Shown in pieces: positions 6,888 through 39,268 of a stretch of DNA of 39,357 bases. Origin of the DNA: Deltaproteobacteria bacterium (GTDB lineage Bacteria > Myxococcota_A > Bradymonadia > REDH01). A program made the position numbers and the translations under genes. The first letter of the stretch is position 1. Each line of letters begins with the position of its first letter. The stretch lies in NCBI GenBank assembly GCA_007693585.1, contig REDH01000209.1, forward strand, positions 1-39,357, given 5' to 3'. Under the pieces are notes generated by a model. The model had not been told where the DNA came from. It saw nothing but the letters and a program-made list of their open reading frames with translations, and ran no database searches.

Positions 6888-6914
6888 CCAGGGCACGCGC
6901 TCGATGCCCTGGTC
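6886..6914 (+). terminator. terminator after obgE
   Basis: A 10-bp perfect stem (GACCAGGGCA at 6886-6895 with TGCCCTGGTC at 6905-6914) around a 9-base loop begins inside the obgE stop codon. Only a short T-containing stretch (CGTTGCTTTC) follows, so termination may be imperfect or Rho-assisted. Confidence 0.65.
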
Positions 6915-7029
6915 CGTTGCTTTCCCGCCGCGAGCGCTGATGGATGGGCGGAAAACGACGCCCCTCGGCCCGCAATGCACCGAACGCGCTGCGGCGAACG
7001 GGACAGGTGTGCGCCGCAGGGCGGTCGGC

Positions 7030-7035
7030 TATAGT
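7030..7035 (+). promoter_or_regulatory. possible -10 element for the ceramidase-like gene
   Basis: TATAGT (5 of 6 with TATAAT) stands out in a GC-rich leader, 69 bases before the ATG at 7105. No convincing -35 is placed 16-18 bases upstream. Confidence 0.35.
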
Positions 7036-7104
7036 GCCTCCCCCAGCCACGGGTCGCGCGACGGGAGGACGCGCGGCCATCGCCCGAATGGAGCCCGCAC
7101 CGTG

Positions 7105-9615
7105 ATGACCACGCACCGTTTCCTGTCCCTCGCCCTCCTGATGCTCGGCCTCGTGCTGTCGGGCTGCGGGAGCGACGACCAGCCCTCTCCCACGTCCACC
7201 TCCGGGGACGGGACGCAGCCGTCCACGGCCGTCGAGCCGTCCGTTCCGTCGACGGATGACGTGGGCGGGACGTCGACCGACGCATCCGACGACGTGTCGG
7301 ACCCCATCCTCACGGATCCCTTCCCCGGCGAAGCCACCCGCACCGCGCTTCGCGAGGACGACGAGCGTGCGCTGGACGAGCCGTTCGATCCCGCGCTGCG
7401 GGTGGGATACGGGCACCGCGACCTCGCCTGGAGGGCCGGGGCGAAGCCGGGCCAGATCGGGACGGCCGCTCTCCCGGCCCGCGACGCGCTCCTCGCCCGG
7501 GCCGTGGGCGAGATCCTGCCGGTGCTCACCCGGCGGGACCGTCAGCGCGTCGTCCAGGAGGTGTCCGCGTGGATTCTCGAGCGCATGGAGCAGACCAACG
7601 CGGATCTGGAGCACGGTCGATACAGCATCCTCTTCGAGCCGGGCCGTGGGGTGGAGCAACCGCCAGCGGTCAACGCATTCGTGATCAGTCAGGGGGACAC
7701 CCACGTGGCGATCGTGAGCGCGGATCTCTACCTTCCGCACGAGCAGCTTCATCGTCGCGTCGCCCACCTCGTGTCGGATCGGACCGGCATTCAACGAGAC
7801 CGGCTCTTCCTGGCGGCCACCCACAACCACTCGGCGCCCCACGCGGTGAGCCCCGCGTTCGGCATCTGGACCTTTGGGGACCAGTTCGACGCGCGCCACT
7901 GGTCCTACATGACCCACGAGATTGCCGACGCGATCGTGGAGGCGTGGGAAGCGCGGGTCCCGGCCACCGTTCGCACCGGACGGACCTCCTTCACCCGGGT
8001 CCAGCGCAACATCATCGGCGCCTCGGTCGCCGAAGTTCGTCCGACCCCGGACGCGGACCGCGAGCTGGTGGACGTCGGCTACCCCCCGGAGTACTTCGAG
8101 GACGATCTGGTGGTGCTTCGGTTCGACCATGCCGACGAGAGTGGCCCACTTGGCCAGATCTTCGTTCTCGGGATGCATCCGGAGACCCTTCGGGACAACC
8201 ACGGCATCACCTCGGGTGAGTTTCCTCGGCACGCCGAGCGCAAGATCGCCGCCCGTACGGGTGCGCCGGCGCTGTGGCTCTCGGGAGCGCTGGGTGACGT
8301 GGAGCCCGATCGCGAACGCGTGACGCCGGGTGCGGACTACTGGCGTCGGGGCTTCGCGGCGATGGATCGCATGACGGACGAGATCGCGGACGCGGTCGTG
8401 GCGCTGCACGACAGCCTCGGGTCCAGCCCCGCCGAGCCGGATCCGGTGCTGCTCAACCTGGCGCGCGACCTGCCGGGACCGGAGGACTTCGCCATCCCGG
8501 ACTCGTCCTACCTCGGGCCGCGCCTGCCGATGCTGAGGCTCATCCATGACTCGATGCGGATCCGCATGCACCTGGTGCGCATCCACGACGTTCTGCTCGT
8601 TGGGACCCCGGGGGAGATGCCTACGGATCAGTCCCTCAACCTGAAGTCGCGGCTGGAGACCGGGGCCGACTCGAACCTTGTCTTCCAGGGCTACGTGTTC
8701 CCCGACGCGCCACAGTGGGTCGTCGAGCGAATCGAGCGCAACTTCTCGACCTCGGTCGCCCCGCCTGAAGCCCAGGTCCCGATCGTCGCGGCGATCAGCC
8801 TCGTGAACACCTACATGGGGTACATCGTGACCGCGTGGGAGTACGAGAATCGGGAGCACTACCGGGAGAGCCTGACGGGTTTCGGTGCGGGCACGGCAGA
8901 CCATGTCAACACCCTGGCCCTGGAGCTTGCGGTGGAGATGCACGGAGGATCGCGAGCGGATCGCGCGTTCGACCCGCTCATCGAGGACGACCTCGCCGGG
9001 TTCGACGCGCTGACGCTGTGGCTGCGAGGCCGCGACGCGCAGGTAGCGGCTTTCTCACGTGCGATCCCGGCCTCGGATCCGACCGGAGTGGCAGTACCGC
9101 TGGGGGAGCCGGCCTTCCTCGATGCGGACCCGGAAGACGAGGATGGCTTCCCGGAGCGCGTGGAGTTCTCGTTCCGCGGTGGGACGAACGACGTTGATCT
9201 GCCCCAGCTTCGCATCGAGCGATGGTCGGACGACGATGACGCCTGGCTGACGCACGCCGAGGGGCCGTCGCTGGAGCTCTTCCTGCTTTTCGAGGGTCCG
9301 GATCAGTGGACCGCGTCGTGGCGCGCGCCGATCGCCGGCGCCACCGTCCGCGTGGTCGCGGACGGTGTGTATCGCGGCGAGCAGGACAATGCGACCGCAC
9401 CGCATCCGCTCTGGGATCCGGATGGCCGGAACGTGGCCTACACGTTCGTGAGCGAACCCTTCGTTGTGCCCGGGACGGATCCGGCTCCCACGGAGCCTGC
9501 GCCGACGGAGCCCTCATCGTCCGCCCCCTCGGAGCCCGAACCAGCACCGACGGAGCCCTCTCCGTCCGCCCCTTCGGAACCCGGACCGGAGCCCTCGTCC
9601 GCGACGCCCGGCTGA
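7105..9615 (+). CDS. neutral/alkaline ceramidase-like lipoprotein
   Basis: 836 residues. A signal peptide ends in the lipobox LSGC (lipidated Cys 21), followed by an Asp/Ser/Thr-rich linker to about 75. The central region matches the neutral/alkaline non-lysosomal ceramidase fold: IVSADLYLP near 203-211 (usual SVD), THNHSAPH at 239-246 (the Zn-binding THTHSGP motif), a His-Pro at 358-359 and ALGDVEPD near 395-402 (usual NVGDVSPN). The family cleaves the amide of ceramide; lipid amide hydrolysis at the cell surface is the likely activity, substrate unproven. The last 45 residues are a Pro/Glu/Ser/Thr repeat tail. ATG 7105 is used; GTG 7102 is one codon earlier and better spaced from GGAG. Confidence 0.8.
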   Translation: MTTHRFLSLALLMLGLVLSGCGSDDQPSPTSTSGDGTQPSTAVEPSVPSTDDVGGTSTDASDDVSDPILTDPFPGEATRTALREDDERALDEPFDPALRVGYGHRDLAWRAGAKPGQIGTAALPARDALLARAVGEILPVLTRRDRQRVVQEVSAWILERMEQTNADLEHGRYSILFEPGRGVEQPPAVNAFVISQGDTHVAIVSADLYLPHEQLHRRVAHLVSDRTGIQRDRLFLAATHNHSAPHAVSPAFGIWTFGDQFDARHWSYMTHEIADAIVEAWEARVPATVRTGRTSFTRVQRNIIGASVAEVRPTPDADRELVDVGYPPEYFEDDLVVLRFDHADESGPLGQIFVLGMHPETLRDNHGITSGEFPRHAERKIAARTGAPALWLSGALGDVEPDRERVTPGADYWRRGFAAMDRMTDEIADAVVALHDSLGSSPAEPDPVLLNLARDLPGPEDFAIPDSSYLGPRLPMLRLIHDSMRIRMHLVRIHDVLLVGTPGEMPTDQSLNLKSRLETGADSNLVFQGYVFPDAPQWVVERIERNFSTSVAPPEAQVPIVAAISLVNTYMGYIVTAWEYENREHYRESLTGFGAGTADHVNTLALELAVEMHGGSRADRAFDPLIEDDLAGFDALTLWLRGRDAQVAAFSRAIPASDPTGVAVPLGEPAFLDADPEDEDGFPERVEFSFRGGTNDVDLPQLRIERWSDDDDAWLTHAEGPSLELFLLFEGPDQWTASWRAPIAGATVRVVADGVYRGEQDNATAPHPLWDPDGRNVAYTFVSEPFVVPGTDPAPTEPAPTEPSSSAPSEPEPAPTEPSPSAPSEPGPEPSSATPG

Positions 9616-9637: not shown

Positions 9638-9838
9638 GCGGCTCAGGGGCGAGGCGGCGCTCTCTTCCGCGGTCCGCGCGGCCTCCTCGCGAAGACGCTT
9701 CTGGCGTTCGTCGCGCTCTCGTTGTCTGCGCTGCTCCGCGAGCAGAGTTTCCCTGGCCTGCTGTCCCCCCCACCATATCCCGGCGAGCAGCCCGACGACG
9801 AAAATGACGGGGATGTAGAACGCGTGGGCCGCGGTCAT
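9629..9838 (-). CDS. small membrane protein at the end of the ccm operon
   Basis: 69 residues: a short N-terminus, one membrane helix at about 8-28 (IPVIFVVGLLAGIWWGG), then a highly charged, probably coiled-coil tail rich in Arg, Glu and Gln. Its ATG overlaps the ccmD stop in an ATGA, so it is translationally coupled to ccmD and is very probably a real gene. I do not recognise the family. The position suggests an accessory to the heme export complex, perhaps a second CcmD-like protein. Confidence 0.6.
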   Translation of the reverse strand: MTAAHAFYIPVIFVVGLLAGIWWGGQQARETLLAEQRRQRERDERQKRLREEAARTAEESAASPLSRPG

Positions 9839-10260
9839 CCACCGGACTCCTCGCGCACGAGCAGGCGGTCCTCGACCTCCTCGATGCGTCGCTGCAGGCC
9901 CTGGAGGTCGGTGGCGACGGCGCGCTGTCGTCGGACGAGCATGAGGACGTAGAGCAGGAGCAGGGTGAAGAACACGAGGTAGGCGGCGAAGAGGAGGGGT
10001 CCGCCGGGGACGAGGTCTCCCTCGCGGACCTCGGAGGCGGCGACGAACCCGTCCCGTTCGAGCGCGGCGCGCGTGTAGGCGCCGTCGTCAGTGGAGTCCT
10101 GCTGAGCGGCCGGGGGATCGGGGTCGACCGCGGGGGTGTCATCCGGAGCGGCGGCCGGGGAGTCGCCGCCTGCGGCGGGGGCGGAGGCGCCCTGGGCGTG
10201 GGCGATGCTGTAGGGGAGCAGCGCGAGGGCGAGGAGGAAGGCGGGGAGCGTACGGATCAT
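9835..10260 (-). CDS. ccmD: CcmD-like heme exporter subunit with signal peptide
   Basis: 141 residues, longer than a typical CcmD (about 50-70). A signal peptide (about 1-22, ending AHA) is followed by an Ala/Pro/Asp-rich linker. A C-terminal membrane helix at about 88-109 continues into a basic, coiled-coil cytoplasmic tail (RRQRAVATDLQGLQRRIEE), the pattern of the CcmD family. CcmD releases heme-loaded CcmE from the CcmABC complex. The gene sits directly after ccmC with a 4-bp ATGA overlap, as expected for ccmD. The exported N-terminal extension is unusual. The assignment rests on pattern and position, not on strong sequence identity. Confidence 0.65.
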   Translation of the reverse strand: MIRTLPAFLLALALLPYSIAHAQGASAPAAGGDSPAAAPDDTPAVDPDPPAAQQDSTDDGAYTRAALERDGFVAASEVREGDLVPGGPLLFAAYLVFFTLLLLYVLMLVRRQRAVATDLQGLQRRIEEVEDRLLVREESGG

Positions 10261-10997
10261 GGGTGGCTCCGGTCCAGGAGGTCCTCCGCGCGGAGGTCGG
10301 CGGTCTCGACGGCTCGCCAGGCAGCGTCGGCCTGCTCCTCGGCGAGGCCGATGCGAACGCGTAGCGCCAGGAGGGTGACGAAGAGCAGCGCGAAAGTGAT
10401 GAAGGACGTGGTGAGGACGAGCTGCATCTCGGGGGTGATGCCAGCGCCTTCGCCGGTGATGACCTGGGGATGGCTTCCGCGCCAGCGTTCGACGCTGTAG
10501 CGGATGAGCGGGATGTCGGCCACGCCGAGGATGGCGAGGACGGCGCAGATCTTTCGGGTGAGGTCGCTGCGTCCGCCGAACTGCCGGACGAGGATGTAGG
10601 CGACGAAGATGAGGAGGAGGACGAGGGTGAGCAGGAGGCGGGGTTCCCCGGTCCACCAGGTGCCCCAGGCCTTTCGGGCCCAGATGGGTCCGGTGAGGAG
10701 GACACCGAGGCAGAAGAGGACGCCGACCTCCGCGGCTGCTCGCGCGACGACATCGGCGCGGACGTCTCCCCGGAGCAGGTACCAGACGGACGCTGCGCAG
10801 CAGAGGATGAAGCCGAGGTAGCCGGCGATGGCGGAAGGCACATGGATGTAGAAGATCTTCTGGACCACGCCCATGGTGGCCTCGGTCGGGGCGTAGAAGA
10901 AGATGAGCCCCATCAGGAGAGCGCCGGCCAGCATCGTGATGGCGGCGAGAGCGACAAGCCAGTCCGCTCGCCGGGGAGTCAGGGCGGGTGTGGTCAT
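10257..10997 (-). CDS. ccmC: heme export protein CcmC
   Basis: 246 residues with six membrane helices. The conserved periplasmic histidines are present at His52 (FYIHVPSA) and His176 (WRGSHPQV). The tryptophan-rich heme-handling motif reads WGTWWTGEPRL at 111-121, where most CcmC proteins have WWxWDPRL. CcmC presents heme to CcmE in the periplasm. The start at 10997 gives a normal length; the in-frame 28-residue extension upstream is not CcmC-like. It follows ccmB after 123 bp, the widest gap in the operon, and that gap holds a promoter-like sequence. Confidence 0.93.
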   Translation of the reverse strand: MTTPALTPRRADWLVALAAITMLAGALLMGLIFFYAPTEATMGVVQKIFYIHVPSAIAGYLGFILCCAASVWYLLRGDVRADVVARAAAEVGVLFCLGVLLTGPIWARKAWGTWWTGEPRLLLTLVLLLIFVAYILVRQFGGRSDLTRKICAVLAILGVADIPLIRYSVERWRGSHPQVITGEGAGITPEMQLVLTTSFITFALLFVTLLALRVRIGLAEEQADAAWRAVETADLRAEDLLDRSHP

Positions 10998-11120: not shown

Positions 11121-11822
11121 TCAGGCATCGACGGCTTCGCCGAAGAGCCAGCGTCCGAGGACGAGGAAGAGGGCATCGAAGGCGATCATGAGCGAGAGCC
11201 AGTCGCCGTGGCCGGCGTGGGCGAGGGGGTCGAAGAGCGTGGCGGAGCCCTTCACGCCGGCGATGAGGAGGGGGATGGCGAGGGGGTAGAGCAGCAACGG
11301 GAGGAGGACTTCGCGCATGCGGACGGCGGCGAGGGCGGCGGAGAGGACGGTTCCGAGCGCGCAGAGTCCGAGGGTGCCGGCGAGGAGGAGCGCGACGAGG
11401 GGCAGGATGGGCGGCTGGACCGGCAGCGGAAAGACGAGGAGGAGGGTGGGGACGAGCAGGGCCTGGAGGGTGAGGAGCAGAAGGAGGTTGGTGAGCAGCT
11501 TGCTGGTGTAGAGCGCGTCGAGGATGCCGGGGACGAGGAGGAGCCCGTCCATGGCGCGGTTCTCGCGTTCGCGCTGGAAGGTGCGGGTGAAGACGAGGGC
11601 CCCGAGGAAGGCGATGGCGACCCAGAGGACTCCGGGGGCGGTGGTGGCGGCGAGCTCGCGGTCGGCAAACCCGGCGAAGGAGAAGAGGGTCATCAGCACG
11701 AGAGCGAAGAGTCCGGCGGTGTGGAGGACCTCGCGGGTGCGCAGCTCGACGGTGATGTCCTTGCGGAGGAGGAGGAGGAGCAGGCGCCAGAAGCCGGGGC
11801 GCGGAGCGGTGACGTTCGTCAT
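11121..11822 (-). CDS. ccmB: heme exporter permease CcmB
   Basis: 233 residues, mostly membrane-spanning with about six helices. It contains the family's early FTRTFQRERENRAMDGLLLVP segment near 77-97, the cytoplasmic region that contacts the CcmA ATPase. With CcmA and CcmC it forms the ABC-type complex that drives release of holo-CcmE. Its ATG overlaps the ccmA stop by 4 bp, indicating translational coupling. Confidence 0.93.
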   Translation of the reverse strand: MTNVTAPRPGFWRLLLLLLRKDITVELRTREVLHTAGLFALVLMTLFSFAGFADRELAATTAPGVLWVAIAFLGALVFTRTFQRERENRAMDGLLLVPGILDALYTSKLLTNLLLLLTLQALLVPTLLLVFPLPVQPPILPLVALLLAGTLGLCALGTVLSAALAAVRMREVLLPLLLYPLAIPLLIAGVKGSATLFDPLAHAGHGDWLSLMIAFDALFLVLGRWLFGEAVDA

Positions 11823-12568
11823 CGGTTGCCTCCGGTTGCCCTGGCGTACACGTCGGCGAGGGTTCCGGTGGCGGGTGCGTCGTGGCGCAGTCGCCCTCGG
11901 GCGATGGTGAGCACCCGAGAGAACTGCTCGGCGGAGGTCTCGAGGTGGTGGGTGACGAGGAGGACGAGGACCTGCTTCGCCTGCAGCTCGTCGAGGAGTT
12001 CCCAGAGGAATGCCTGTCCCTGTCGGTCGAGCCCGGTGAGGGGTTCGTCGAGGAGGACGAGGTCGGGCTCATGGACGAGGGCGCGGGCGAGGGCGAGGCG
12101 CTGCTTCATTCCGCGGGAGAACCCGCCGACCGCCCGGTGGGCGGCGGATGCGAGGCCCACCCGGTCGAGCCAGTGGTCAACGGCCTCCGGTCCGCGGCCA
12201 TGGAGGCCTGCGTAGAGTTCGAGATTCTCGCGGGCGGTCAGCTCGGCATAGACGAGCACATCGTGGGCGACGAGGCCGATGCGCCCGCGGAGCGTGTGGC
12301 GGTGGGCCCTGCCATCGAGTGCGCCGTCGTGGGTGATCCGTCCATCCTGGGGGGTGAGGAGGGTGGCGAGGCAGGCGAGCAGGGTGCTCTTCCCGGCGCC
12401 ATTGGGGCCGATGACGGCGAGTCTCTCGGCGCGTCGCGCCTCGAAGGAGACCCCGTGCAGTGCGATCGTGCGCCCGAAGTGCACGCCCAGTCGGTGCACG
12501 GCGATGCGGGGCCCGTGCGGCGTGGCATGGTTCCGCGGACCTGTCGGTGCCGTGGTTGCGAGGGTCAT
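11819..12568 (-). CDS. ccmA: heme exporter ATP-binding protein CcmA
   Basis: 249 residues, a single ABC ATPase domain. Walker A GPNGAGKST is at 54-62, signature FSRGMKQRLALARAL at 150-164, Walker B LVLLDEP at 170-176 and the switch histidine at 207 (VTHH). The first 20 residues are a non-conserved Thr/Pro-rich extension. ATP hydrolysis by CcmA releases holo-CcmE from CcmC. The ATG at 12568 overlaps the stop of the upstream 547-residue gene, and the end overlaps ccmB. Confidence 0.94.
   Translation of the reverse strand: MTLATTAPTGPRNHATPHGPRIAVHRLGVHFGRTIALHGVSFEARRAERLAVIGPNGAGKSTLLACLATLLTPQDGRITHDGALDGRAHRHTLRGRIGLVAHDVLVYAELTARENLELYAGLHGRGPEAVDHWLDRVGLASAAHRAVGGFSRGMKQRLALARALVHEPDLVLLDEPLTGLDRQGQAFLWELLDELQAKQVLVLLVTHHLETSAEQFSRVLTIARGRLRHDAPATGTLADVYARATGGNR

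Positions 12569-14716: not shown

Positions 14717-14720
<4 letters not shown>
14205..14720 (-). CDS. small coiled-coil membrane protein in the ccm operon, CcmI-like in outline
   Basis: 171 residues: an N-terminal membrane helix (about 3-28), a long charged coiled coil (about 38-118, with LRLRELTERKAVLVELL) and a disordered Ala/Ser-rich tail. It overlaps by 4 bp with the CcmF-CcmH fusion gene before it and the 547-residue gene after it. CcmI proteins also begin with a membrane helix and a cytoplasmic leucine-zipper-like loop, so this may be a reduced CcmI without the TPR domain that binds apocytochrome. That parallel is structural inference only. Confidence 0.65.
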
Positions 14721-17347
<2,627 letters not shown>

Positions 17348-17411: not shown

Positions 17412-17930
17412 TCAGTAGGTGGAGGCCCCGGGAGATCCGGGAGGAGGCGTGGCGCCGGGAGCGATGAAGGGCGAGCCCGCGGCGCCACCCGTCCCCGGGG
17501 GAACGCCGTCGTATCGGGACGCGCACTTGGCCATGACCTCGACCGCCTCGAAGAGCTCGGGGCCGTTCATCCTGCCGAGGGCGATCACTTCGGCTTCGTC
17601 GCTGAAGGTGTCGGGGAGGATTCCGCGGAAGTGGACATCGATGGCGTACTCCCCGTCGATGATTCGGAAGAGGTGTTCGTCGAGGGTGCCCTCCCGCACC
17701 ATGTGTGAGCCGGGGACGACGTCTCCCTTGATCCGGAACTCGCGTTCGACGAGCTCTTCGTGCATCTCGATCGCTTCCCCGACGGTGTAGTAGAACACCT
17801 GTTCCTCGAAGGAGGTGAAGGCGAGCCACGCCACGGCGGCCGCGATGAGTACGGCACCCAGCAGGAAGCGCAGGTTGCCGTTGCCCTGGGGGGGAGGGAC
17901 ACTCTGGGCGGAGGTGGGCTGAGAGGTCAT
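17412..17930 (-). CDS. ccmE: heme chaperone CcmE, CxxxY type
   Basis: 172 residues: a short cytoplasmic N-terminus, one membrane helix at about 21-39, and the OB-fold periplasmic domain with GILPDTF at 103-109. The heme-binding site reads AKCASRY at 134-140, so Cys136 stands where classical CcmE has His (AKHDENY) and Tyr140 is retained. This CxxxY form is known from archaeal and some deltaproteobacterial systems (System I*). The tail is Gly/Pro-rich. It is the first gene of the ccm operon, 64 bp before the ccmF-ccmH fusion; the 259-bp gap upstream presumably holds the promoter, but I see no good match. Confidence 0.93.
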   Translation of the reverse strand: MTSQPTSAQSVPPPQGNGNLRFLLGAVLIAAAVAWLAFTSFEEQVFYYTVGEAIEMHEELVEREFRIKGDVVPGSHMVREGTLDEHLFRIIDGEYAIDVHFRGILPDTFSDEAEVIALGRMNGPELFEAVEVMAKCASRYDGVPPGTGGAAGSPFIAPGATPPPGSPGASTY

Positions 17931-18897: not shown

Positions 18898-18981
18898 GGG
18901 GTCTACCGTCCTGTTCAATCACGCCGCGGCCGCACCCGGACGCCCGGGACGTTCGCCACACCCACGGTCGCAAGCATGCCG

Positions 18982-19012
18982 CAATCCCTTCGCAGACGCC
19001 AGAAACCGGCAG
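18982..19012. repeat. 31-bp direct repeat, copy 1
   Basis: Identical over 31 bp to 19055-19085, with a 42-bp unrelated spacer. It starts CAATCCCTTCGCAGAC. It lies in the gap upstream of the HD gene, outside any likely gene. Confidence 0.85.
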
Positions 19013-19054
19013 CGTCGTCGCGATGCCATCGGCCCGGTCGACGTTTCGGGGCCA

Positions 19055-19091
19055 CAATCCCTTCGCAGACGCCAGAAACCGGCAGGGATTG
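19055..19091. repeat. 31-bp direct repeat, copy 2, with inverted ends
   Basis: The second copy runs 19055-19085 and is extended so that CAATCCC (19055-19061) and GGGATTG (19085-19091) form a 7-bp inverted repeat at its borders. Inside, GCCAG and CCGGC make an imperfect inner stem. This looks like a palindromic intergenic repeat of REP or small-MITE type; copy 1 lacks the right inverted end. Confidence 0.75.
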
Positions 19092-35657: not shown

Positions 35658-38429
35658 TCAGTCGTCCTGCTCGGGACGGCACTCGTAGAGCTCGGCGCAG
35701 TCGTCCCCGGCCACGTCGATGCAGGCGCGGAGCCGCGCCCCGATGGAGGGGTCGTTCACGGAGTCGATGCAGAGCAGGCTGACGCAGCTCTGCAGGAGCC
35801 CGTCCACGCAGATGTCGGTTTCGAGCGCTCGACCGTGGCGATCCTTGCCGGGGACGCAGCGGGCGTTGCTGCCGGCTGCGCACTGGTCATCGCTCTCGCA
35901 CGGGGTGTAGCAGCCGTTGCCGGCGCAGACCTGATCCGGCCCGCACTCGGTGTCGAAGTTGCACTGGCGCGCATTGCCGCTGCACGCGAGGTTGCCCGCG
36001 GCATCGGCGTCGGGGGTTCCGGTGCAGGTGTCGTCGAAGCCGTTGCACTCCTCGGTGTCGGCGCAGTCGGTGCAGCGACCGAAGGGAGGAATGCAGGCAC
36101 CCTCGGTGCACGTCTCGTCGGTGCCGCAGTCGGTGTCGTCGCTGCAGGCCGCGAGGCAGAAGGGCCGTGCCTCGTTGGGCGGCCGGACGCAGAGTGCGTC
36201 GGCGCCGCACTCGGCGTCCGCGATGCAGGGCTCGCACGCGCCGAGCACGGGGCATCCGGCGTCGGGCCCGTCGGCGCTGCAGGTGTCGCTGACGCCGGTG
36301 CACTCCTCCTCCTCGGCGGGAATGCACTCCCCGGCGCGGTCGAGGGCGGTCCAGACGGCGCGGTAGGCGTTGATGAGCCCGAAGCCGAAGGCATCGGAGC
36401 GTCCGTCCTCGTCGTAGAGGGCGTTGAGGCGATCGAGGGGCTCACTGGTCTCGTGGAGGATGGTCCGGACCTCCTCGGCGGTGAGGTCGGGGTTGGCGCT
36501 GAGCATGAGGCCGATGAGGCCGGTGACGACAGGCGCCGCGGAGGAGGTGCCCCCGAAGTCGTTGGTGTAGTCGCCGGCGTCTCCGCTGGCGCGGTTGTAT
36601 CCGCGGCTGCCGCGGATGTCGGTGGTGGTGATGCCGTGGCGACCGCCCTGGGAGGGAGCGAGGACGTCGAGGACGGGGCTCCAGGAGGAGTAGGTGGCCT
36701 TGCGTCCCTGGTCGTCGCTGGCGCCGACGGAGATCGTGTGCGGGTGGTGGTTGAAGTAGTCGGAGAGCGAGTTGTCGTTTCCGGACGCGAAGACGATCAC
36801 CATGCCGCGTCCGTCGCGGGCCTCGGTGGCGGCGGTGGTGATGGCGCTGTTGACGACGCTGGGGATGCCGAGGGGCCCGCCGGAGTACTGGCGTTCGGTG
36901 ACGAAGTCGATGCTGCCCGTGGAGAGGCCCCAGGAGTTGTTCTGGACGGCGGCCCCGGCGTTGGCGGCGTCGGTGAAGGAGTTGGCGACGTCGGAGTCGC
37001 TGGAGTTGAAGCCGATGATGTTGGCGTACATGGGCATGATGGAGCACCCGGGGCAGACACCCCGTCCGCCGATGTCGTTGGCTCCGGCCGCGGCGACGCC
37101 CGCGACGGCGGTGCCGTGGGAGCAGCACTGGTTGAGGGCGGCGTCGAGGTTGGCCGGCTCGTAGAGCCCCTCGACGATTCGCCCTTCGAAATCGGGGTGC
37201 AGGCTGTCGACGCCGTCGTCGTTGATGGCGATGACGATGGAGGGGTCCCCGAGGGTGAGGCGCCAGGCGCGGACGGCGTCGATGCCGCTGTGGGGCTGGA
37301 CGCCGGGCCGTCCGGTGCCGGTGAGGTGCCACTGCATCTCGAAGAGGGGGTCCTCGATGGTGTCGTGGGCGACGTAGCTGCGGAGGAAGTCGGGTTCGGC
37401 GAAGTCGACGCCCTTGACCTCGCCGAGGCGCAGGAGCCTGCGGAGGAATCCTTGCTGATCCGACGTGTTGCGAACGACCCAGCCGTCCCCGCCGATGCGC
37501 AGGGGCTCGACGATCTCGAGCTCGTGCTCGCCGAGCAGCTTCTCGATGCCGTCCTCGGGGCGCTCGGTGAAGCGGACGACGGCGCGGTCGGTCACGACGA
37601 CGCGGAGGTGGTTGGGGGTGAAGTAGGTGGGGTACTCGGCGAGGAGGCCGGCGTGGGTGCGGAGGGCGTCGAGGAGGCCGCCGTGGACGTGGCCGTCGAG
37701 GGTGACGATGTGGCGGTCGGGGGTCTCCCAGGTGGTGAAGGTGCGGGGGAAGAGCGCGACGATCTCGAGGACCTCGCGGTAGGCTTCCGGGGTGAAGCGG
37801 AACGCGTGGCTGAGGTCGGCGGGCTCGAGGGTGTGGAGGCCGTCGGCGGCGCGGACCTGCTCGAGCTGGATGGGGGGTCCGCACTCGTCGAGCTTCGCGT
37901 CGAGCTCGCGGCAGGCGCGGACGCATTCCTGGTCGAGCTCGGGGATGAAGCCGAAGGTGTCGCAGGCGCGTGCGTTCTCGCAGTTGGTGGCCTGGGTGAG
38001 GCACGTCTGGATCTCGGTGCCGTCGATGCCGATGAACTGGCCGAAGACGGGGAGGCCCTGGCAGAGCTGCATGCAGTCGAAGGACTGGCCGGGGGGCAGT
38101 CCGCCGCCGCCGCCGAAGCCGGCGCCGAGGTCGAGGTAGCCGCACTCCTCGAGGAGGTCGCAGGCGTAGGTGCAGCGCTGGGCGATGGGGGCGTCGAGTG
38201 GCGGGGGGACGCGGCTGCCATCCGGGGGGATGGGGGTGCTCGTCTCGTCGGAGGAGACGTCCGCGGAGCCGGAGCCGCTGACGTCGGACTCCGGCGCGGT
38301 CGGCTCCGCGTCGGAGGAGATGCTGTCGGTATCGCCTCCTGCGGACCCGCCGCTCTCGCTGCTTCCGCAGGCGACGAGGGTGAGGCCGAGCAGGGCGACG
38401 GGCAGGGAGCGCAGGAGGAGCGAGTGCAT
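35658..38429 (-). CDS. S8 subtilase lipoprotein with Cys-rich flanks
   Basis: 923 residues. The signal ends in the lipobox LVAC (Cys21), followed by a Ser/Asp linker, then a Cys-rich segment (about 85-185), a propeptide-like region (about 270-350) and the peptidase domain (about 355-695). The catalytic triad is Asp404 (INDDGVD), His438 (CSHGTAVAG) and Ser629 (GGTSSAAP), with the oxyanion Asn551 (ASGND). Residues 700-923 are a second Cys-rich region with modules such as CTDCADTEECNGFDDTC, resembling MopE-type and related surface repeats. An outer-surface endopeptidase is likely. The ATG at 38429 is preceded by GGAG at about 10 bases. A promoter and repeats lie upstream. Confidence 0.92.
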   Translation of the reverse strand: MHSLLLRSLPVALLGLTLVACGSSESGGSAGGDTDSISSDAEPTAPESDVSGSGSADVSSDETSTPIPPDGSRVPPPLDAPIAQRCTYACDLLEECGYLDLGAGFGGGGGLPPGQSFDCMQLCQGLPVFGQFIGIDGTEIQTCLTQATNCENARACDTFGFIPELDQECVRACRELDAKLDECGPPIQLEQVRAADGLHTLEPADLSHAFRFTPEAYREVLEIVALFPRTFTTWETPDRHIVTLDGHVHGGLLDALRTHAGLLAEYPTYFTPNHLRVVVTDRAVVRFTERPEDGIEKLLGEHELEIVEPLRIGGDGWVVRNTSDQQGFLRRLLRLGEVKGVDFAEPDFLRSYVAHDTIEDPLFEMQWHLTGTGRPGVQPHSGIDAVRAWRLTLGDPSIVIAINDDGVDSLHPDFEGRIVEGLYEPANLDAALNQCCSHGTAVAGVAAAGANDIGGRGVCPGCSIMPMYANIIGFNSSDSDVANSFTDAANAGAAVQNNSWGLSTGSIDFVTERQYSGGPLGIPSVVNSAITTAATEARDGRGMVIVFASGNDNSLSDYFNHHPHTISVGASDDQGRKATYSSWSPVLDVLAPSQGGRHGITTTDIRGSRGYNRASGDAGDYTNDFGGTSSAAPVVTGLIGLMLSANPDLTAEEVRTILHETSEPLDRLNALYDEDGRSDAFGFGLINAYRAVWTALDRAGECIPAEEEECTGVSDTCSADGPDAGCPVLGACEPCIADAECGADALCVRPPNEARPFCLAACSDDTDCGTDETCTEGACIPPFGRCTDCADTEECNGFDDTCTGTPDADAAGNLACSGNARQCNFDTECGPDQVCAGNGCYTPCESDDQCAAGSNARCVPGKDRHGRALETDICVDGLLQSCVSLLCIDSVNDPSIGARLRACIDVAGDDCAELYECRPEQDD

Positions 38430-38483
38430 CACGGGGGATCTCCGGTCGGTGGGGTGGCGGCGGCCGGACGCCGGGCCGCCGGC

Positions 38484-38512
38484 ATGAAACAGGGTCGGCG
38501 GATGTGAGTCAA
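38484..38512 (-). promoter_or_regulatory. promoter of the subtilase gene
   Basis: On the minus strand TTGACT (38507-38512, 5 of 6), a 17-base spacer and TTTCAT (38484-38489, 4 of 6). It places the transcript start about 50 bases before the ATG at 38429 and is the best sigma-70-like promoter in the window. Confidence 0.6.
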
Positions 38513-38521
38513 TACCCACAT

Positions 38522-38550
38522 CGGAAACACTGCGGGGTCGGGTGTTTCCG
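38522..38550. promoter_or_regulatory. 9-bp inverted repeat just upstream of the subtilase promoter
   Basis: CGGAAACAC (38522-38530) and GTGTTTCCG (38542-38550) are perfect inverted repeats separated by 11 bases. The site begins 10 bases upstream of the -35, a usual position for an activator. As RNA it could also form a hairpin. Confidence 0.55.
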
Positions 38551-38570
38551 AAGGGTTCGTGGGCGGGCGA

Positions 38571-38680
38571 GCGGCGGGTGCCGGTACGCGACCGGGCGGC
38601 GGGTTCGGACATGCGGCGGGTGCCGGTACGCGATCGAGTGGCGGGTGCGGGTGAGCGGCGGGTGCCGGTGCGGGCGGGGC
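38571..38680. repeat. 42-bp tandem repeats upstream of the subtilase
   Basis: Units at 38571-38612 and 38613-38654 and a partial third from 38655 share the start GCGGCGGGTGCCGGT, with a period of 42 bp and some divergence in the second half. They lie in a 380-bp gap between the subtilase and the next plus-strand gene, which otherwise shows nothing I recognise beyond the promoter and palindrome. Confidence 0.7.
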
Positions 38681-38809
38681 GTGTGGTCGTGGGCGGAGCG
38701 GGGGAGACTCGCGTGGCTTCGGGTGGGTTGTGCATGGCACTTGAGTGCGGGGGAGCATTCGACGTACGGCTTGGCCGGGAGGGTGGAGCGGTGAGGCGCA
38801 GGAGGCTCG

Positions 38810-39268
38810 ATGGGACGGAGAGACGGATCGGTCCGGGAGGCGAAGGGGCGGGTGAGGCCGGGAGGTCTGGCGGTGTGGGCGTTGCGGCGGCTGGATCGTC
38901 GGTCGACGTCGCGGGGTCGGGAGCCGTTCGACGCGCTGGAGGTGGGGGTGTTGCGGGCGCTGGTTCCGGTGCTGTTGCCGGTCTCTCGCGAGGTGACGGC
39001 GGTTCGCGAGGCGGCGGGGGAGGTGGAGGAGGCGCTGCAGGGTCTGGACGACACGACGCTGGCGGAGGTGCGTGCGACGCTGGTGTGGCTGGACATCGCG
39101 CCCTGGCGTCTGGGGCCGCGGCGTGCACGTCTGACGGCGTTGTCGGCGGTGGAGGTGGAGCAGTTCGTGCAGGCGTGGAGCGTGAGTCGGGTGCCCGACG
39201 AGCGGGCGCGGTGGGAGGTGTTTCGGGGGATCGTGCTGCATGTGGGCTGGCCGCGGGAGGAGGGCTGA
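38810..39268 (+). CDS. probable small subunit of a membrane or GMC-type dehydrogenase
   Basis: 152 residues, helical and basic at the N-terminus. The region ALEVGVLRALVPVLLP and the ending WEVFRGIVLHVGW recall the small companion subunits (gluconate 2-dehydrogenase subunit 3-like) that pair with FAD-dependent GMC oxidoreductases. AGGAGG lies 4-5 bases before the ATG. The stop shares a base with the start of the next gene, which begins like a FAD enzyme; this strengthens the call. Codons are strongly G-ending. Similarity is faint, so the assignment is tentative. Confidence 0.5.
   Translation: MGRRDGSVREAKGRVRPGGLAVWALRRLDRRSTSRGREPFDALEVGVLRALVPVLLPVSREVTAVREAAGEVEEALQGLDDTTLAEVRATLVWLDIAPWRLGPRRARLTALSAVEVEQFVQAWSVSRVPDERARWEVFRGIVLHVGWPREEG

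Follow-up and report, generated by a model that had tools for sequence, protein, structure and literature searches.

Organization of the operon

The window, here the whole 39,357-nucleotide stretch of contig REDH01000209.1 (GTDB lineage Myxococcota_A; Bradymonadia; REDH01), carries a cytochrome c maturation (Ccm) operon whose genes all lie on the minus strand, in the order ccmE, ccmF-ccmH, P171, P547, ccmA, ccmB, ccmC and a ccmD-like gene. Four-base overlaps of the ATGA type join ccmF to P171, P171 to P547, P547 to ccmA, ccmA to ccmB, and ccmC to the ccmD-like gene, so translation across these junctions is probably coupled. The first gene, ccmE (17412..17930), encodes a 172-residue Cys-type heme chaperone of the family PF03100. 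It is followed by a CcmF-CcmH fusion of 876 residues, counted from the likely ATG start (14717..17347), in which PF01578, PF16327 and PF03918 are found in a single frame. The CcmF part matches CcmF of T. thermophilus (6zmq) at 304 bits and retains both the WXWD motif, as WAWD, and the aligned His residues. The CcmH domain at its C-terminus (14837..15097; PF03918, E 9.1e-10) has the CxxC motif CEGC and is the only CcmH in the genome. The preliminary description of this DNA had placed ccmE with a CcmF-CcmH fusion and with further coupled proteins; both points are confirmed, and the further proteins are P171 and P547, which sit between CcmF and CcmA with ATGA-type overlaps.

The remaining genes encode CcmA, an ABC ATPase of about 249 residues from an inferred start (11819..12568; PF00005; TIGR01189 ccmA, E 3e-35, with a score just below the cut-off), CcmB (11121..11822; PF03379, E 2.3e-26), CcmC (10257..10997; PF01578, E 2.9e-26; TIGR01191 ccmC, E 2.6e-35, below the cut-off) and a small membrane protein of 141 residues (9835..10260), which overlaps the end of CcmC by 4 nt and is called CcmD-like from its position and topology, with a signal peptide and one C-terminal membrane helix. 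A search of the genome with TIGR00385 (CcmG) returns thioredoxin-like matches below the threshold, the best at 61 bits against 123. Because the genome encodes several cytochrome c domains, has a sole CcmE and lacks the System II protein ResB, the operon is likely its route of cytochrome c maturation, as judged from gene content.

The cysteine site of CcmE and its distribution

The match of the 172-residue frame to PF03100 (E 1.9e-23; 83.1 bits against a Pfam cut-off of 24.6) is accompanied by alignment with the E. coli CcmE structures in the PDB, and the D. vulgaris CcmE structure 2KCT is also retrieved by a profile built from Cys-type relatives. In the alignment, Cys136 (codon TGC, 17523..17525, minus strand) takes the position of E. 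coli His130, and Tyr140 follows four residues later in the sequence KCASRY, which completes the CxxxY site. Both the replacement of the heme-binding His by Cys and the assignment to the CxxxY type of System I*, as originally described, therefore stand. A second CcmE of the His type, which had been named as the finding that would speak against this assignment, is absent from the genome (97.7% complete), where the window CcmE is the only one.

A sequencing error at Cys136 can be rejected because the Cys is present in all 33 loci read from the class, the window included, and for the same reason the residue is not unique to the window. CcmE matches are found in 45 of the 57 genomes of the class, and every readable CcmE among the surveyed genomes is of the Cys type, with KCPSRY or KCPSKY in all class loci read (n=33) except for the KCASRY of the window. 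The Ala after the Cys is found only here, since the rest of the roughly 80 Cys-type CcmE of the phylum have Pro; three further rows without Pro arose because the search expression matched by chance, and the true motifs of those loci were tabulated separately. Within the wider phylum, certain families are of the His type and others of the Cys type. When genome contigs were scanned for DNA coding for KCPSKYE, Cys-type CcmE appeared, among the matches listed, in Acidobacteriota, Myxococcota, Ignavibacteriota, Bacteroidota, Actinomycetota, Bacillota, Chloroflexota, Gemmatimonadota, archaea and others, so the rarity implied for a CcmE with Cys does not hold. CPSKY is the commonest form of the Cys-type site according to a 2011 review (PMC3601427). 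The window CcmE is of the published System I* type, and the best reading of the protein itself is an ordinary Cys-type heme chaperone, a known version that is normal for its lineage.

A variant site, CPSKF, in which Phe replaces the heme-ligand Tyr, occurs in the Cys-type CcmE of seven loci (L112, L117, L276, L291, L292, L295 and L298) and characterizes whole families of the phylum.

P171 and P547

The two proteins encoded between CcmF and CcmA give no Pfam or NCBIfam match above the cut-off. P171 (14205..14720, minus strand), 171 residues long, consists of a membrane helix and a CcmI-type coil with the pattern RK..L...LRDLEFD..T.KI...DY; most of its relatives also have a C-terminal zinc ribbon, which is lost in the family of the window. 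P547 (12565..14208, minus strand), with 547 residues, starts with a signal peptide; its predicted periplasmic part forms two beta-sandwich domains, and these are followed by a membrane helix and a CcmI-type coil. Its AlphaFold2 model (pLDDT 79.6) is of good confidence except for the N-terminal 115 residues and comprises two beta-sandwich domains, with the division into two being a reading of the strand order, followed by the membrane helix and a coil hairpin. The best fold matches of this model, at low TM-score, are ribophorin I-type oligosaccharyltransferase subunits and M1 aminopeptidases; the ribophorin I match (TM about 0.24) was set aside as too weak a clue to function.

The resemblance of both proteins to CcmI, the TPR-containing apocytochrome chaperone also known as CycH, lies in the N-terminal membrane helix and coil of CcmI, which resemble P171 and the C-terminus of P547. 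A search with the P171 model retrieves the N-termini of TPR CcmI/CycH proteins encoded in His-type operons, and profile comparison by hhalign, together with HMM matches, connects the coils of P171, P547 and CcmI, a comparison that is partly circular because the CcmI sequences in it had been retrieved with the P171 model. Such coil likeness can also be convergent. Unlike CcmI, neither protein has a TPR domain in Pfam scans, and P547 is modeled with its two beta-sandwich domains instead. Both proteins are conserved between CcmF and CcmA in the Cys-type operons of many Myxococcota families and also of Acidobacteriota.

Two operon types within one phylum

Classification of 120 operon regions from the phylum separates Cys-type operons, arranged as E-F-(H)-P171-P547-A-B-C, from His-type operons, arranged as ABC-E-F-H-I with a TPR CcmI. 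Gene order splits the two types perfectly, with CcmABC downstream of E-F in 53/53 Cys-type loci (those having a CcmF and a placed CcmB) and upstream in 39/39 His-type loci. CcmH is fused to CcmF in 10 of the 53 Cys-type loci, and 35 of the 39 His-type loci have a separate CcmH nearby. A strong P547 match is present in 47/53 Cys-type loci and in 0/39 His-type loci, which give weak matches to the shared coil only; some of the surveyed loci had served to train the P547 model, and the later 60 loci split identically.

Whole-genome searches in 40 genomes of the phylum (28 Cys-type and 12 His-type) detect CcmH in 22/28 of the former versus 12/12 of the latter. Most Cys-type genomes without the fusion encode CcmH away from the ccm operon, and the idea that these relatives are missing CcmH was rejected on this ground. 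Full-length P547 is found in none of the His-type genomes searched, and among the Cys-type genomes searched it is not universal, or not always recognized.

In the CcmF tree, the His-type sequences sampled from the phylum all form one clade, and the window groups among Cys-type Myxococcota and Acidobacteriota; named Myxococcota CcmF sequences (L172, L184) adjoin a genome of the same phylum as the window (L108), on which ground the phylum is taken to be Myxococcota. The tree holds a single change between His and Cys. Several families of Myxococcota, and Acidobacteriota too, have the CcmF-CcmH fusion, and other Cys-type genomes have a separate CcmH. The fusion and the coupled proteins around a Cys-type CcmE are thus real but not unique to the window. 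In Ignavibacteriota, Bacteroidota and Bacillota, Cys-type systems mostly have the arrangement ABC-E-F, and P547 was not seen in those sampled, so P171 and P547 mark one Cys-type lineage and not all of them. Judged from the survey and the tree, the co-occurrence of Cys-type CcmE, gene order and partner proteins is a trait of the lineage, with His and Cys exchanged once on the tree, and not an isolated novelty.

The CxxC of CcmH reads CEGC or CSGC in the family of the window. In three loci of another family of the class (f3; L074, L076 and L077), the fused CcmH has no CxxC and reads CPSSG or CPASG.

The heme motif of CcmC

The WXWD motif is the heme-handling motif of CcmC (review PMC12285233), and W114, D126 and R128 are among its most conserved residues (PMC12077264). 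The alignment with E. coli CcmC, together with PF01578, covers the whole of the window CcmC, in which the motif reads WTGE (10644..10655, minus strand), corresponding to W125G and D126E in E. coli numbering. WTGE is common to the CcmC of the window's family, and sister families have WXWE or R128Q. Among the Cys-type CcmC of the phylum (n=50), D126 is replaced by Glu in 21/50 and R128 by Gln in 14/50, and W125 is changed in 9/50; the corresponding counts for D126, R128 and W125 in the His-type CcmC (n=38) are 2/38, 0/38 and 0/38. In Cys-type CcmC of other phyla, the three residues are mostly kept. The data are suggestive of CcmC residue changes going with Cys-type CcmE in the phylum, and no more than suggestive because the CcmF tree holds a single His/Cys change. 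They do not establish statistical covariation of the two, as there is one evolutionary contrast and other phyla mostly keep the motif. The WTGE form could weaken heme handling by CcmC.

Relation to known Ccm systems

System I* of archaea and Desulfovibrio (Allen et al. 2006; Goddard et al. 2010) shares with the window the Cys of the CxxxY site and the set CcmABCEF. The window differs from it by the presence of CcmH, fused to CcmF, of the CcmD-like protein and of two extra proteins, and by the gene order E-F-H-P171-P547-A-B-C-D. System I* was first defined in 2006 by a CcmE with Cys and the absence of CcmH, and the 2011 review no longer regards the latter as characteristic, since CcmH accompanies the Cys-type CcmE in about one-third of System I* bacteria (PMC3601427). 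By the original definition, the fused CcmH domain sets the window apart. With the classical System I, which has a His-type CcmE and is found in E. coli and in other families of the phylum, the operon shares CcmABC, E, F, H and the OB-fold of CcmE, whereas it has Cys for His, CcmABC downstream instead of upstream, neither a separate ccmH gene nor a TPR CcmI in the operon, and an altered CcmC motif.

The operon is best read as a variant of System I that is specific to this lineage, has components without annotation and departs from the usual CcmC motif. What is new here are P171 and P547, which lie outside curated families and carry membrane-proximal coils of the CcmI type, and the WTGE motif of CcmC in the window's family.

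Proposed heme route and alternative explanations

In the most likely route, CcmC, with CcmABD, would give heme to CcmE in the periplasm, where Cys136 would bond the heme, probably by a thioether linkage to one of its vinyl groups, with Tyr140 as ligand of the heme iron. Holo-CcmE would then deliver its heme to the fused CcmF-CcmH protein, and this protein would attach the heme to apocytochrome c at the CXXCH motif, with the fused CcmH domain carrying out the thiol chemistry. P171 and P547 would act in place of the TPR protein CcmI: their coils would dock on the synthase, and P547 would use its two beta domains to hold apocytochrome or CcmE in the periplasm. We put the probability of a functional Cys-type CcmE within a System I*-type Ccm machine, this heme route and the help of P171 and P547 included, at about 80%. 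That P171 and P547 jointly replace CcmI is, as a claim of its own, tentative and held at slightly less than even odds. A broader proposal, in which the whole lineage has a Cys-type Ccm system with CcmI replaced by P171 and P547 and with a CcmC remodeled (WTGE in the family of the window, D126E or R128Q in sister families) and tuned for heme loading onto Cys, is possible but doubtful.

A covalent link from Cys136 to heme that differs from the His-vinyl bond, put too firmly in the preliminary description, is expected by analogy with two organisms: a covalent Cys-heme bond on CcmE is reported for D. desulfuricans, and holo-CcmE of M. acetivorans, detected by heme staining, is described as requiring Cys120 (PMC9084895, PMC3601427). 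The CcmE of D. vulgaris (structure 2KCT, matched here), on the other hand, is described as binding ferric heme non-covalently via its Cys (PMC3884852), and by this precedent Cys136 could act as a thiolate ligand of the heme iron only and form no covalent link with the porphyrin. This alternative is unlikely in view of the D. desulfuricans and M. acetivorans reports, and the D. vulgaris result may come from the use of an isolated domain in vitro without CcmC.

Far less credible is a degenerate, non-functional Cys in a cell that makes its cytochromes by another maturation route. The departure of KCASRY from the Cys-type consensus, with a Pro to Ala change seen only in the window within the phylum, and the WTGE motif of CcmC would agree with such decay, but the operon is intact, the genome encodes neither a second CcmE nor ResB, and the Cys is kept throughout the class. 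P171 and P547 might likewise be unrelated neighbors held in place by operon structure and not parts of the Ccm machine, as their position outside annotated families would allow; their 4-nt overlaps with ccmF and ccmA, the fact that many families of the phylum, and Acidobacteriota as well, keep them between CcmF and CcmA, and the coil in common with CcmI make this improbable.

The literature on System I* asks how a Cys-type CcmE forms, and then releases, a normally stable thioether (PMC3601427). A phylum that holds both His- and Cys-type Ccm operons with different partners offers a natural comparison, in which one can list the partner proteins and CcmC residues that accompany either chemistry. 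For cytochrome c maturation, P171 and P547 would be new candidate components, including in the environmentally common Myxococcota and Acidobacteriota.

Other features of the window

Apart from the operon, the window encodes a neutral ceramidase-like protein (6904-9615, plus strand) and a large subtilase-domain protein (35658-39128, minus strand). A 35-base direct repeat, with two copies (18978-19012 and 19051-19085) that are 97% identical and 73 bases apart, lies upstream of an HD-domain gene and has no other copy in the genome.
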